A DNA stretch of 64,000 nucleotides from Halarcobacter anaerophilus (GTDB lineage Bacteria > Campylobacterota > Campylobacteria > Campylobacterales > Arcobacteraceae), in contig NZ_CP041070.1 of NCBI RefSeq assembly GCF_006459125.1, positions 2,356,001 through 2,420,000 on the forward strand, read 5' to 3'. Each line of letters begins with the position of its first letter. The first letter of the stretch is position 1. Both the position numbers and the translations under genes were made by a program. Positions 13,140-55,078 of this stretch are shown here, in pieces. The notes beneath the pieces were generated by a model. It did not search any database. It saw only the letters and a program-made list of their open reading frames with translations, and was not told where the DNA came from.

Positions 13140-13148
13140 TCCTATTCT
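13126..13148. terminator. Hairpin between convergent genes
   Basis: A 9-base perfect stem (AGAATAGGA / TCCTATTCT) with a 5-base loop that covers both stop codons of the AI-2E and FTR-rhodanese genes. There is no strong T-tract, so termination efficiency is uncertain. Confidence 0.45.
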
Positions 13149-13888
13149 TCTCCTGAAATAATATCACCTTGATAAGTCATAATTCCGTAATCAAAGTTTA
13201 TAACATTTTTGTAGCCTGAATTTAACATAATTTTTTGACAATATGCACTTCTGCTTCCGCTGTGACAGTATAAAATAATAGGTATCTCTTTTTTATCTTC
13301 AATTTGTTCTAAAGATTGATAAAAAGATGTTGTAGGAACTAAATAATCGGTTCCTTTGATTCTTCCTCCTACCCATTCCATCCACTCTCTTGTGTCAACT
13401 AAAAGAAAATCCACATAGCCTAAACTTCTAGCTTCAAGTAAGGCTTCAATTTCATTTGCATTTAATTGTGATTTTTTTAACAACTCTTGGCACTGCTCTT
13501 TTGAAAGTCCCATTGAGTGTTTTTGCTCATCTATTGAAGGAATCTCTTCTTTTGTAACCTCATCTACATATTCAGGTGTACAAAAAATCGCACAGTGACA
13601 ATGTCCTTGAGCAGGAATCTCTTTTGTTAAAGCAGGAGTACAGGGACAAAGTCTGTTCTCTTCTTTGTCTCTCTCTTCTTGAGTATTTCCTATTACCATA
13701 AAACAGGGACAGTATCTTTTACCGTAAATCATTTTATTTCTTGTAAGTCCCATTTGAATTGATTCATTTACATCATCTTCCGGATTATAAACAAAATTAT
13801 ATTTTTCGCAAACATTATCGGTAAATTGTTTTGTCAGTTCTAGTTCAGTCTGAAATTCTTCACTCTCTATATCAATTTTTTTTATCAT
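13142..13888 (-). CDS. Ferredoxin-thioredoxin reductase catalytic domain fused to rhodanese
   Basis: A 248-residue two-domain protein. Residues about 15-110 hold the Cys signature of FTR catalytic subunits: CPC at 60-62, CPC at 81-83 and CHC at 97-99, which in the family bind a 4Fe-4S cluster and form a redox-active disulfide. Residues about 155-245 form a rhodanese domain with VDTREW and an active-site loop CHSGSRS (Cys208). FTR passes electrons from ferredoxin to disulfides; rhodaneses carry persulfide sulfur. The fusion suggests a ferredoxin-linked persulfide or disulfide reductase (inference). No FTR variable subunit is nearby. It diverges from the letA operon. Confidence 0.85.
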   Translation of the reverse strand: MIKKIDIESEEFQTELELTKQFTDNVCEKYNFVYNPEDDVNESIQMGLTRNKMIYGKRYCPCFMVIGNTQEERDKEENRLCPCTPALTKEIPAQGHCHCAIFCTPEYVDEVTKEEIPSIDEQKHSMGLSKEQCQELLKKSQLNANEIEALLEARSLGYVDFLLVDTREWMEWVGGRIKGTDYLVPTTSFYQSLEQIEDKKEIPIILYCHSGSRSAYCQKIMLNSGYKNVINFDYGIMTYQGDIISGEE

Positions 13889-37704: not shown

Positions 37705-38520
37705 TTACTTAATATTATTTAGTAATGAATCAATCACTTTATGAAATTGTTTTGTTATTTCATCGTTAATAAACTCATGAACAAATAGCTTTCTTAATCT
37801 TGACGTCGTGGAAATATTTGATGATGTTGAAACATTACCTATATATTCTACCATAAAATTTTGATTTAACCTATTTTTTTTTGCCAAATTTACCAAAGAA
37901 TTGGCAATAGTCTCTCCGATTTTATAGTTTTTTGTATGATTAAAACAGATAAAAAGTCTCTCTTTATGTACAGAAAGCATTTTCATTAAAGCATAAACAT
38001 CCGTAAGTGCTGAAGGATCAGTAGTCGTTAAAGCCAGAACATTATCGGATATTAATAAAAATTCTTGAACATATTCATTTAATCCCGCACCCGTATCAAT
38101 TAGTATTAAATCATATTTATTTAAACTTTTTAGATCATTAACGACTCTTGTTAAAACTAAAGAATTTTTTAAATTTGCATACTGATAGCCGCTTTTACCT
38201 GCAATAAGAGTAATGTTTTCATAAGAAGTTTGCGTTAAGATCTCAGTTATAGTGTTTCTGCCTTCAATATAATCAAAAAAAGTATAACGAGGTTTTAAAT
38301 CAAATAAAACTTGCATATTTGCAAGTCCTATATCTGCATCTATAACGGCAACTTTAAAGCCTCTTTTTGATAACAAATAAGCGATATTTGCAGTAAAAGT
38401 TGATTTTCCTACTCCACCTTTTCCGGAAGTTATAGTTATGATTTTTGTTTTTGAATTAACTTCTTTATTTCTAGTTAGATTTAATAGTTTACTGGCCTGA
38501 TTAGAGATTGAATTAAACAA
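37705..38520 (-). CDS. flhG: Flagellar number regulator FlhG (FleN/YlxH)
   Basis: A 271-residue MinD-like ATPase with a deviant Walker A GKGGVGKS, VIDADIGLANM and LIDTGAG. It limits flagellar number and, in Campylobacter, division placement, acting against FlhF. It follows flhF by 3 bases. The N-terminal extension (about residues 1-24) is short; SNQASKLLNLTRNK resembles the FlhF-activating N-terminal helix of FlhG proteins. Confidence 0.93.
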   Translation of the reverse strand: MFNSISNQASKLLNLTRNKEVNSKTKIITITSGKGGVGKSTFTANIAYLLSKRGFKVAVIDADIGLANMQVLFDLKPRYTFFDYIEGRNTITEILTQTSYENITLIAGKSGYQYANLKNSLVLTRVVNDLKSLNKYDLILIDTGAGLNEYVQEFLLISDNVLALTTTDPSALTDVYALMKMLSVHKERLFICFNHTKNYKIGETIANSLVNLAKKNRLNQNFMVEYIGNVSTSSNISTTSRLRKLFVHEFINDEITKQFHKVIDSLLNNIK

Positions 38521-38523
38521 TAA

Positions 38524-39681
38524 CTATCTCCCTATACAAGAGTTATTCATAAAACAGTTTATTAAAAAAGTAGAATCTGATACAATTAAATCATCGGGCA
38601 CATTTTGTCCTATTGAAAAATATATAATTGATTTTTTTGTTTTATGGGCAAAAGAGATTAAGTTTCCGAAACTTTTTGTTTCATCAAGTTTTGTAAAAGT
38701 TAAGTAGTTAATATTCAGTCTGGAGTAGTTTGTATAAATATCTATTAAATCACTATGTTTCACATTTGCAGGAAGAACAAGAACTTTTTCAATAGGCAGT
38801 TCATGCACTTTTTCTTGATATTCGTTAATCATCTCAATTTTATCAACATCATATTGGGAAGAACCTGCTGTATCTATAAATATATAATTACAATCTTTTA
38901 ATCTAAGTAAAGCCTCTACCAATTCTTCGGGTTTTTTTACAACTTCCAAAGGAAGTCTCATTATATTTGTATAAGCTTGAAGTTGTTCTATTGCACCTAC
39001 TCTAAATGAGTCTAAAGTTACAATTCCTACTTTATAATTTTGTCCTAATTTATACGCATATCTTGCTGCAAGTTTTGCTATTGTCGTTGTTTTCCCGACT
39101 CCTGTGGGACCTACCATCATAATAATTTTTCTTTGATGTTTTCTTAAAGGAACTTCTTGCTTAATAGGGATAATTCTTCTAAGCACTAATTTAAAAAAAT
39201 CATTCACCTTTTTAGGGTTTGTTTTTAAAGCTATAGGTAATTGTTTAATCGTTTTCTTCATAATAGTATAGGTCATCTCTTGATCAAACTCATTTTGTTC
39301 AAAAAGATTATACATATCAACAAATTCGGGAGGTATTGTTAAATCATAAAGTTGACTTTTTGGATCCCATAAAGATTTTTGAACCTGCATTATTGCATCT
39401 TGCATTTTCAAGATTTCTTCTTTAAAGTCATAAAACTTTACATCCATTTTTTGATTCGATTTTGAACCGCTCTTTGAAGCCGAAGTTGAAAGTTTTTTTG
39501 TATGTTTCAAAGGTTGTTGCTCATCTTCTAAGGCAACTACAACTTCATACATATCTTTGTTGCCGTCAACTGCACTTGATATTTTTTTTGTTGAGACTAC
39601 AATAGCATCTTCTCCGCACTCTTCTTGTGCATTTCTTAAAGCTATTGTCGGAGTTTCTCCTAAAAAAGAGAGCATATTCAT
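38524..39681 (-). CDS. flhF: Flagellar placement GTPase FlhF
   Basis: A 385-residue SRP-type GTPase that fixes flagella at the pole. The N-terminus SFLGETPTIALRNAQEECGE is typical. The NG domain has G1 GPTGVGKTTTIAKLAARYA, the DSFRVGAIEQL insertion and G3 FIDTAGSS. It starts by ATGA overlap with the preceding gene; a second ATG two codons on has better spacing from GGAAGA and may be the true start. Confidence 0.95.
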   Translation of the reverse strand: MNMLSFLGETPTIALRNAQEECGEDAIVVSTKKISSAVDGNKDMYEVVVALEDEQQPLKHTKKLSTSASKSGSKSNQKMDVKFYDFKEEILKMQDAIMQVQKSLWDPKSQLYDLTIPPEFVDMYNLFEQNEFDQEMTYTIMKKTIKQLPIALKTNPKKVNDFFKLVLRRIIPIKQEVPLRKHQRKIIMMVGPTGVGKTTTIAKLAARYAYKLGQNYKVGIVTLDSFRVGAIEQLQAYTNIMRLPLEVVKKPEELVEALLRLKDCNYIFIDTAGSSQYDVDKIEMINEYQEKVHELPIEKVLVLPANVKHSDLIDIYTNYSRLNINYLTFTKLDETKSFGNLISFAHKTKKSIIYFSIGQNVPDDLIVSDSTFLINCFMNNSCIGR

Positions 39682-50998: not shown

Positions 50999-52105
50999 TT
51001 ATTTGTTAAACTCTGCTATAAGAGCTTCCAAATCGTCATTTGCCATTAAGTCATCCGTATTCGTATCCCCTGCAATATGTTTGGCAACGGCTATTTCTTT
51101 GTGATCTCCTTGATCTTCAAATAGATTATTTAAATATATAGTAAGTTTTCTAATTACAGCCATTACCCTCTCTATTTTTTGTCTATTTATATCATGAAAC
51201 TGCATCAATTCCATTGCTTGAAAGATTTCGGCATTTCCGTCGTTGATTTTTTCATTTACATCGGAAATATGTGTAGACATCTCTTTTGCAGCCTCTAAGT
51301 TTTTCTTAAAAACTTCAATATTAGGAAATTTTTGACTTAAAGAAGATAACATTGCAACTTGTTTTTCACTGAAATCATTTAAAATTTTAACATCGTTTTG
51401 TATTGCATTGTTATAGTCTAAAATATTACTTAAAACATCAAATATTTTAGTAGCTTTTTCTTCTGAATCATTTGCTACGGCACTTAATTGATTTACAACT
51501 TTAGTATCTTCTTCTACAGGTAAAGGGAAAACTCCTGAATCTATTTTTGAATCCAAATCGTCACCCCTTTTTTCTTCATAATCGATTGAAGGTTCAGGAA
51601 CTTTTTCTTCCTCTATTCCTTCAATTGAAGATAATATTTCATCTATATTGTCAGAAGATAGTTTTTCGTTTGATTGAGCAATCGTCTCTTCAATTGTAGG
51701 CTCCTCTTTTGCCTCTTCTAAAGATTCATTTTGCTCTTCTGTATTTTCAGAAGGTTTTTCTTCTTTAGGTTCTTCTTTCTCTTGGTTTTCAGAAGATTTT
51801 TCCTCATTTTGACTATTTTCCAACTCTTTTATAATATCATCTATATTTGTCTCTTCTGAAGGTTTATCTTCTTCTTTTTCTATATTTTCAAGATTATTTA
51901 ATATATCTTCAACAGATTCGTCTTCTACTTTTTTATCTTCGTTTTTTACAATATCTTCAGTTTGTGCTATTAATTCATTAATATCATCTTCTGACATATT
52001 GCCTTGAGGTTCTGCCTTCTTTTCATCAGATTCAGAAGATGAATCATCATCCTTAAAATCTAATCCATTCATCAAAGACTCAATCTCTTCTTGACTCATA
52101 CTCAT
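50999..52105 (-). CDS. cheZ: CheZ-like CheY-P phosphatase with acidic, FliM-peptide-like N-terminal half
   Basis: A 368-residue protein. Residues about 205-335 form a long helical hairpin with MQFHDINRQKIERVM; Asp305 and Gln309 match the catalytic Asp/Gln pair of CheZ (E. coli Asp143/Gln147). The very end (351-368, DDLMANDDLEALIAEFN) looks like the C-terminal CheY-binding helix of CheZ. The first ~200 residues are very acidic and contain short repeats like the FliM/FliY CheY-docking peptide: SQEEIESLMNG (4-14), SEDDINELIAQ (38-48), SVEDILNNLE (64-73), NIDDIIKELE (87-96) and SDNIDEILSSIE (151-162). It follows cheY by 31 bases. Phosphatase function is well supported; the peptide role is inference. 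Confidence 0.8.
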   Translation of the reverse strand: MSMSQEEIESLMNGLDFKDDDSSSESDEKKAEPQGNMSEDDINELIAQTEDIVKNEDKKVEDESVEDILNNLENIEKEEDKPSEETNIDDIIKELENSQNEEKSSENQEKEEPKEEKPSENTEEQNESLEEAKEEPTIEETIAQSNEKLSSDNIDEILSSIEGIEEEKVPEPSIDYEEKRGDDLDSKIDSGVFPLPVEEDTKVVNQLSAVANDSEEKATKIFDVLSNILDYNNAIQNDVKILNDFSEKQVAMLSSLSQKFPNIEVFKKNLEAAKEMSTHISDVNEKINDGNAEIFQAMELMQFHDINRQKIERVMAVIRKLTIYLNNLFEDQGDHKEIAVAKHIAGDTNTDDLMANDDLEALIAEFNK

Positions 52106-53473: not shown

Positions 53474-53908
53474 ATGTCTGTTAATTTAGAAGAGTTAAAA
53501 AGACTCAGAGAAGAGAACTTTGCAAAACATAAAAAGAAGAAAAAAGAGTATTACCTAAAAAGCAAAAAAAAGAATTTAAAATCTAAATATGCAAGTTACA
53601 AAGAGATTGATTACTCAAAAGAACTAAATAGTGATAATTTTGCCGAAAACATAAAAATAATTGCAAAAAAGCAAAAAAAACATATTGATGACAGAAAAGA
53701 ACAAATACTTTTAAAAATCGAAGAGTATAAAGAGAAAAAGCAGAATTATTATCAAGAAAACAGAGAAAAAAGATTAGAATACGACAAAGTATATAGAGAG
53801 AAAAAGAAAGAAAAATTAAAAGAGTATAGAAAAGAGTATTATAAAAAGAATAGAGAAAAAATTCTACAAAAGCAAAAAGAGAGAAGAAACAAAACTAATA
53901 AAGAGTAG
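53474..53908 (+). CDS. Extremely lysine-rich coiled protein, unknown
   Basis: A 144-residue soluble protein dominated by Lys, Glu, Arg and Tyr, with a high net positive charge. From about residue 55 on it reads as helical repeats like YYQENREKRLEYDKVYREKK and KEYRKEYYKKNREKIL, similar to repetitive low-complexity basic coiled segments seen in many unrelated proteins. No signal or membrane segment. It is co-directional with flgG and with the next gene, 3 bases on. Function unknown; its partner may be the acidic domain of that next protein. Confidence 0.6.
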   Translation: MSVNLEELKRLREENFAKHKKKKKEYYLKSKKKNLKSKYASYKEIDYSKELNSDNFAENIKIIAKKQKKHIDDRKEQILLKIEEYKEKKQNYYQENREKRLEYDKVYREKKKEKLKEYRKEYYKKNREKILQKQKERRNKTNKE

Positions 53909-53911
53909 CAA

Positions 53912-55078
53912 ATGGCAGATAAAAGTGATGAAGAAATTGTAAAAGAAGAAGCTGGTTTAGAATCAAAAATCAGTGATGAAGAGGTATTAGCCCACCTTTC
54001 ACTAGGTAAAGAAGATGAGAATAAGGAAGAAAATTCAGAATCTTCAGAGCAAAACAACTCGGAAACAAATGATGAGAATTCAAAACAGACAAATGATGAA
54101 GAAGTTATTGCAAATGAAGATAAAGACGATGAAAAAGATCCAAACAGCCTTAATCCTAATAAAGCAGAAGAGTTTGAAGAGTTTGAAGTACAGAAAAAGC
54201 AACCTAAAATTTTCAGACTTTTGATTGCTATTGCATCTACTCTGTTTTTAGTTCTGATTATCGGTCTAATTCTTTATTTTATAGGTTTTTTTGATTCTGA
54301 AGCTCCCAAAAAAGAAGAAATTGCAAAGATAAAAGAGAACAAACCTGTTCCTGAAATTGTTTTTAATGAAAAAGAGATAGATAAAAAAGAGTTAAATAAA
54401 AAACTTACTATGCTTACTAAAAAAGAGATAATGAATAAAGAGGAATTAGAAGCTGAAGAGAAGAAAATAGAAGCAGAAAGAAAAAGAAAAGAAGAAGAAC
54501 AAAAAAAAGCTCTTGAAGCAAAGAAAAAAGAGGAAGAACAAAAACTAGCAAATCAATTAGCAAAAATTGAAAAAGAGAAAAAAGAGTTACAAGAGCAACA
54601 AAAACTTATAAAACAACAACAAGAAGAATTTTTGCAACTTCAAGAAAAAGCAAAAAAAGAGATTGAAAATAAAATAAACAATATAAATAATAATGAAGTT
54701 CAAGCAAATAATATGAAAAATGAAGAATCGAATCTTCCTTTAGAAAAACAGGAAACAAACGTAAGCCCTGAAGAGATCAATAAAATGATACAAGAAGTTG
54801 ATACTAAACAAATGGCAAATAACTCTTTTCTTTCATTTATTAATGTTGCAACAATAAAAGGTGTTCTTTATAAATCTTTTTTGGATGATGTACAAAAATA
54901 TGATAAAAATATCTCTTTATGCAGAGATTTAAAAAATAGAATAGAGATATATGTAGGACCGTATGATTCTACAAAAGAGAGACAAAAGGTTTATAATCTA
55001 CTTCTTGAAAATGGATTTAAAGAGGCTTATTTAGTTGATTTAACAAAAGAAGAGTATGAAAAAAGATGTAAATATTAG
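53912..55078 (+). CDS. Single-pass protein with acidic cytosolic part and SPOR-like end
   Basis: A 388-residue protein: residues 1-95 very acidic and Asn/Ser-rich, one membrane segment (about 101-127), a TolA-like charged coiled coil (about 165-275, EAEEKKIEAERKRKEEEQKK) and a C-terminal domain (about 305-388) with IEIYVGPYDSTKERQKVYN and LLENGFKEAYLVDL that follows the SPOR pattern. SPOR domains bind glycan strands lacking stem peptides at division sites or poles. With flgG in front, a role in anchoring something at the polar cell wall is possible (inference). It converges with rimM. Confidence 0.7.
   Translation: MADKSDEEIVKEEAGLESKISDEEVLAHLSLGKEDENKEENSESSEQNNSETNDENSKQTNDEEVIANEDKDDEKDPNSLNPNKAEEFEEFEVQKKQPKIFRLLIAIASTLFLVLIIGLILYFIGFFDSEAPKKEEIAKIKENKPVPEIVFNEKEIDKKELNKKLTMLTKKEIMNKEELEAEEKKIEAERKRKEEEQKKALEAKKKEEEQKLANQLAKIEKEKKELQEQQKLIKQQQEEFLQLQEKAKKEIENKINNINNNEVQANNMKNEESNLPLEKQETNVSPEEINKMIQEVDTKQMANNSFLSFINVATIKGVLYKSFLDDVQKYDKNISLCRDLKNRIEIYVGPYDSTKERQKVYNLLLENGFKEAYLVDLTKEEYEKRCKY

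Follow-up and report, generated by a model that had tools for sequence, protein, structure and literature searches.

The locus described here raises the question of why a chemotaxis phosphatase should carry, ahead of its catalytic domain, a long acidic tail in which short peptides resembling CheY-binding sequences recur. It lies in a stretch of 64,000 nucleotides, called the window below, from a 3.0 Mb Arcobacteraceae genome. Two neighbouring open reading frames are concerned:

50999-52105, minus strand: cheZ, 368 amino acids, ATG at 52105 with an alternative ATG two codons on; match to NF041271
52137-52505, minus strand: cheY (CheYz), the upstream neighbour of cheZ; Response_reg match with E 2e-30

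The cheZ gene is located directly downstream of cheY and is followed on the same strand by flagellar basal-body rod genes, fliH, a fliN-like gene and frames reading as fliF and fliG. The NCBIfam profile NF041271 (Phos_CheZ) matches residues 186-366 (E 3.8e-32) with 111.7 bits, which is below the equivalog cut-off of 350 bits, a threshold passed in only 16 of 150 Campylobacterota genomes. The Pfam CheZ profile gives E 0.002, under its gathering score. Judged by profile and catalytic motif, the frame is an Arcobacteraceae CheZ phosphatase. A CheZ family match was found in 96 of 104 Arcobacteraceae genomes. FliM is absent from seven of the eight genomes without CheZ, indicating that cheZ goes with the flagellum. 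When the adjacency of cheY and cheZ was sampled in 13 Arcobacteraceae genomes, a close CheY orthologue (80-100% identity) was present in eight, beside CheZ in all eight; the remaining five, which have no such orthologue, are CheZ-less genomes.

Further CheZ relatives differ in their architecture. The same genome encodes a second CheZ-like protein of 119 residues (L002:1360-1719, genome about 917377-917586) between a truD-like and a chemoreceptor gene; it has HQDIHRQ and the C-terminus SNDELEALIQSM, and no N-terminal tail. Relatives from two genera (L095, L096) have a CheZ paralogue of 162-165 amino acids with the N-terminal sequence MTQEELDA(M/L)M, the CheZ core and almost no linker. Finally, a frame of 183 amino acids (L094) is a CheZ relative that has neither DxxxQ nor the C-terminal peptide and keeps the N-terminal motifs (MGMTQKEIEALINGLD ... 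NIDEIEKLISQ), which suggests decay or a catalysis-free role.

The catalytic half of the protein comprises three features:

51119-51502, minus strand: CheZ helical hairpin, residues 202-329, from AF2 helices and the NF041271 match
51179-51193, minus strand: catalytic DxxxQ, D305-Q309 (DINRQ), aligning with the catalytic helix of E. coli CheZ (1kmi_Z)
51008-51043, minus strand: C-terminal peptide, residues 355-366 ANDDLEALIAEF; PSSM 18.3 bits, AF2 helix 356-367, pN/pS 0.11

Both the catalytic pair D305/Q309 and the CheZ-like last helix, which the initial annotation had proposed, are present, the latter with the peptide NDDLEALIAEFNK. In the AF2 model, calculated for a single chain from a 13-sequence alignment (pTM of the whole model 0.33, low pLDDT in the tail), the hairpin helices 202-259 and 264-329 have a pLDDT of mostly 80-95. 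Sequence and model together indicate that the protein has a tethered C-terminal helix of the CheY-binding type (355-366, after a low-confidence tether). The docking peptide at the C-terminus and the catalytic pair are kept in the long CheZ proteins of the Arcobacteraceae. Fold comparison spoke neither for nor against the assignment: a Foldseek search with the AF2 model listed 1kmi_Z at rank 5 with E 0.56, and fold searches mostly gave generic helical hairpins, a common fold. A PDB search with the single CheZ sequence found no CheZ, and a profile of relatives reached 1kmi_Z at E 1.4 only.

In front of the hairpin lies the tail with its candidate peptides:

52061-52096, minus strand: motif 1, residues 4-15 SQEEIESLMNGL, a FliM/CheZ-like N-terminal peptide; PSSM 27.2 bits, pN = 0
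51959-51994, minus strand: motif 2, residues 38-49 SEDDINELIAQT; PSSM 16.8 bits, pN/pS 0.12, AF2 helix 39-58
51890-51925, minus strand: motif 3, residues 61-72 EDESVEDILNNL, like QVDDLLDSL of E. coli CheZ; E. coli CheZ score 26, pN/pS 0.32, AF2 helix 65-75
51821-51856, minus strand: motif 4, residues 84-95 EETNIDDIIKEL; E. coli CheZ score 23, pN/pS 0.04, AF2 helix 88-98
51623-51658, minus strand: motif 5, residues 150-161 SSDNIDEILSSI, the best match to the E. coli CheZ peptide; score 33, pN/pS 0.22, AF2 helix 151-160
51662-51694, minus strand: possible further helix, residues 138-148 (IEETIAQSNEK); AF2 helix, pN/pS 0.28
51536-52054, minus strand: acidic linker region, residues 18-190, mostly of low confidence; 38% D+E (65 of 173 residues), pN/pS 0.67 outside the motifs

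The initial annotation had counted about five motifs of the form S-x-[ED]-[ED]-I-x-x-[LI] and likened them to the FliM peptide. The count holds, as there are indeed about five sites in the acidic stretch, but the pattern taken literally matches only at residues 4 and 38. A looser core, [IV]-[DE]-x-[IL]-[LI], covers all five: SQEEIESLM (4), SEDDINELI (38), ESVEDILNNL (63), NIDDIIKEL (87) and DNIDEILSSI (152). As an outside probe we used the C-terminal CheY-binding peptide of E. coli CheZ, SQDQVDDLLDSL, with BLOSUM62 window scores. The five best windows (33, 29, 26, 23 and 21; next window 17) are exactly the five proposed sites, starting at residues 4, 38, 61, 84 and 150. Internal matches to this probe of at least 20 number four, against 0.29 in shuffled sequences (P = 0.0005).

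With the E. coli FliM peptide (SQAEIDALLN) as the only probe, motif 1 scored strongly (32) and the internal copies were not significant against shuffles. A matrix of FliM and CheZ peptides gave 27.2 bits for motif 1, 16.8 bits for motif 2 and a weak 9.1 bits for motif 5; for motifs 3 and 4 the match is to the C-terminus of CheZ rather than to FliM. Motifs 1 and 2 fit this combined matrix well, and the internal copies are closer to the CheZ C-terminal peptide. The label "FliM-like" was replaced by "CheZ-C-terminal-like" for motifs 3-5, where the FliM-only probe did no better than shuffles. Since the internal copies escape significant detection with the FliM peptide, they might bind far less tightly. 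The AF2 model has isolated helices at residues 5-13, 39-58, 65-75, 88-98, 138-148 and 151-160, with low pLDDT between the motifs. The helix at 138-148 is conserved in close relatives only and shows no clear motif.

Selection was assessed by comparison with four close relatives, the E. coli CheZ peptide defining the motif windows. The pN/pS ratio was 0.00 in motif 1 and 0.16 in the four internal 12-mers, as against 0.67 in the linkers; the catalytic hairpin had 0.18. Synonymous divergence was similar in internal motifs (0.53) and linker (0.54), and when the mask was shifted circularly, the observed pN was reached in only 2 of 172 shifts. Among 16 congeneric sequences the mean identity of the four internal motif windows was 0.69 versus 0.29 for the linkers (p = 5e-12); these windows were partly picked by eye, and the pN/pS analysis is the repeat with probe-fixed ones. 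The N-terminal peptide varies no more than the active site and is conserved in all long Arcobacteraceae CheZ proteins read; here the unselected listing is the fair basis, the count of 92 of 92 being circular in that the same pattern had trimmed the set. By these substitution patterns the internal motifs are under purifying selection within freely drifting linkers, and as such are a real, selected feature. The alignment proposed in the initial annotation hence found the motifs kept while the linkers drift, so that the refuting outcome named there, absence of conservation among relatives, did not occur.

Could the internal copies nevertheless have arisen by chance, or be neutral, in an acidic stretch of low complexity? 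That the literal motif occurs at only two sites and that copy number varies would fit this view. Against it stand the shuffles, the purifying selection and two backgrounds. The 66 open frames of at least 120 amino acids in the window have at most two probe matches each, compared with five in CheZ. The acidic linkers of ChePep from relatives, which are equally acidic, have a motif count near chance, exceeding shuffles by about twofold at most, and this on low numbers. A chance origin is therefore extremely improbable and was rejected (pN/pS 0.16 vs 0.67 in linkers, plus shuffles). What the initial annotation had seen as a CheZ with several CheY-binding-like peptides is borne out by probe, shuffles and conservation.

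Other candidate carriers in the neighbourhood were discarded. The protein at 53912-55078, FliH, FliN and FliY have weak matches at most, within the window background. For FliY, best scores of only 17 and 19 agree with the earlier remark that it has no obvious peptide, and we found no convincing CheY-binding-like one in it. FliM is encoded elsewhere in the genome and begins MAEFLSQDEIDALL. A rhodanese-like protein (13142-13888, minus strand) contains, in LNANEIEALLEAR, an EIEALL match that is probably due to chance, so single copies of the core are not diagnostic. Two frames beside flgG (53474-53908 and 53912-55078, both plus strand) have no Pfam match at cut-off; one product is rich in lysine, the other is acidic at its N-terminus and contains a hydrophobic segment. 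Proteins resembling both are encoded beside gmk in another genome (L207 in G102).

By profile the protein studied here is CheZ and not ChePep; a separate ChePep orthologue of about 260 amino acids is encoded beside gmk (L194:674-1483). ChePep orthologues were matched in 61 of 61 sampled Arcobacteraceae genomes, a few weakly, and are mostly 250-295 amino acids long, while the few read from other Campylobacterota have 446 to 495 or more. Where CheZ is long ChePep is short, and where CheZ is short ChePep is long, which looks as though the acidic tail had passed from one partner to the other. As a source of the motifs ChePep was ruled out, with little or no motif enrichment in its acidic regions.

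A likely ligand of the peptides is the adjacent CheY. FliM, CheZ and CheA share one CheY surface (PMC2883070), and CheYz is the likely FliM-binding (motor) CheY of Arcobacter (PMC9321776). In our alignment CheYz keeps D57, W58, T87, Y106, K109, F111, L116 and K119 (E. coli numbering); the retention of W58, T87, Y106, K109 and K119 is in line with that study. Position 91, which the study also lists as important, is G in a global alignment and is followed by K at 92, a point against docking. For E. coli CheZ, the affinity for CheYp comes mainly from the tethered C-terminal helix, and the catalytic site binds loosely (PMC1447658). Based on the shared CheY face, this tethered-helix affinity and the kept CheYz surface, we take the motifs to be extra docking peptides that would bind CheY~P.

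The FliM and CheZ probes rank the motifs differently, and five CheY types exist in Arcobacter (PMC9321776). This could mean that FliM-like (4, 38) and CheZ-like (61, 84, 150) peptides are tuned to different receivers, several CheYs or the receivers of CheA or CheV. As only CheYz keeps all key FliM-binding residues (PMC9321776) and adjoins cheZ, we regard such a division of labour as very unlikely.

Our interpretation, which we consider probable, is that Arcobacteraceae CheZ is a multivalent CheY~P-docking phosphatase with an expanded acidic tail. It would be a dimeric helical hairpin with the DxxxQ pair and a C-terminal CheY-docking helix, to which the tail adds the ancestral N-terminal docking peptide and further ones, four in this protein, on a flexible acidic linker. 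On phosphorylated CheYz, each peptide would form a short helix against the alpha4-beta5-alpha5 face. The tail could then capture several CheY~P per dimer and hold them near the two active sites, so that the docking peptides raise the local supply of CheY~P. In E. coli, CheYp could in principle bridge two CheZ dimers (PMC1447658); similarly, a CheY~P that is docked on a helix of one dimer while touching the active site of a second might let the tail link dimers. Binding to CheY~P, its capture, the linking of dimers and any influence on how fast CheY~P is dephosphorylated or how the motor switches are what we infer from this arrangement. If the peptides bind, many substrates could be docked per dimer, compared with four in E. 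coli (two tail helices and two active sites, PMC1447658).

Binding would also be compatible with a quite unlikely opposite role, in which the tail sequesters CheY~P away from both FliM and the active site, so that CheZ would chiefly buffer CheY~P or compete with the switch. The peptides of FliM and CheZ use the same CheY face (PMC2883070), and those of the tail lie well before the hairpin with low-confidence linkers between. Yet long CheZ keeps the C-terminal peptide and the catalytic pair, so captured CheY~P would sit beside a working phosphatase; by sequence, buffering and delivery look alike.

A bolder version of multivalent docking is a sticker-and-spacer scaffold, in which CheY~P cross-links CheZ into phosphorylation-dependent polar clusters or condensates and copy number serves as an evolvable gain knob. 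We think this unlikely; if true, CheY~P would trigger its own collective dephosphorylation.

Unlikely, too, is that the peptides serve localisation instead of catalysis, by binding a partner at the pole or the flagellum (ChePep, FlhG or the C-ring), their likeness to CheY peptides reflecting a shared helix type. In monotrichous flagellates the N-terminus of FliM is in contact with FlhG (PMC12826062), and the window itself encodes an ATPase resembling FlhG and a GTPase resembling FlhF (37705-39681). ChePep, with the wide occurrence in Arcobacteraceae given above, localises CheZ in H. pylori (PMC7750401, PMC11237671). In Azorhizobium, the N-terminal helix of CheZ suffices for polar localisation. 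However, the internal motifs are closer to the CheY-binding peptide at the CheZ C-terminus than to that of FliM, and most of the docking surface is retained in the neighbouring CheY. Moreover, Lertsethtakarn in 2015 reportedly placed the polar determinant of H. pylori CheZ in its central domain.

The origin of the peptides can be read from the wider phylum. CheZ from other Campylobacterota families, the Helicobacter type included, has an MTQEEL start and a DIEALI-type end in every case read, from which we conclude that both terminal peptides are ancestral in the phylum. The earlier statement that known CheZ proteins have a single contact, at the C-terminus, thus has to be corrected, as these proteins have such a peptide at each end. 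The Arcobacteraceae-specific part, judged from these sequences, is the lengthened acidic linker with internal copies, a lineage-specific elaboration of a known phosphatase. Internal copies average 2.49 per protein versus 0.46 in shuffles, and at least two are present in 76% versus 8%. Their number ranges from 0 to 6, so no fixed number is needed, which we counted against docking. In one relative (L082), three copies of the form DDILAGIDGIVDD lie within a 69-nt tandem repeat; tandem duplication is hence one route to copy multiplication. If the peptides do bind, nature offers a system graded by copy number in which to address the old question whether CheY~P-driven oligomerisation of CheZ sharpens chemotactic responses.

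Among known systems, the protein is close to the CheZ of other Campylobacterota such as H. pylori, with which it shares DxxxQ, the predicted helical hairpin, the N-terminal MTQEELDALM-like peptide and the DIEALI-type C-terminal peptide. The difference lies in the linker: 27-70 amino acids (about 50) with almost no internal matches in 39 sequences from outside the family, 78-234 with typically one to five copies in Arcobacteraceae. H. pylori CheZ without residues 1-39 retains phosphatase function (PMC11237671), so catalysis in that species does not depend on the N-terminal copy; binding would give a purpose to this region of Campylobacterota CheZ, whose function in H. pylori is listed as unknown (PMC11237671). 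ChePep likewise has a long acidic region, and is a partner of CheZ in H. pylori, but differs at the N-terminus, lacks the CheZ core and has an acidic region that is enriched in motifs barely or not at all. The EIDALL peptide at the FliM N-terminus is closely matched by motif 1 (SQEEIESLM) and is expected to use the same CheY face; it sits on the switch, whereas here several copies are carried by a phosphatase. A FliM-type EIDALL peptide is also found in FliY of Bacillus. E. coli CheZ (1kmi) carries DxxxQ on its second hairpin helix, and at its C-terminus a tethered helix, VDDLLDSLGF, binds CheY; the internal motifs are similar to this peptide. In contrast to the protein described here, it has one docking peptide, at the C-terminus, and we know of no CheY-docking peptide in its N-terminal helix, a helix whose function is given as unknown in PMC7750401.
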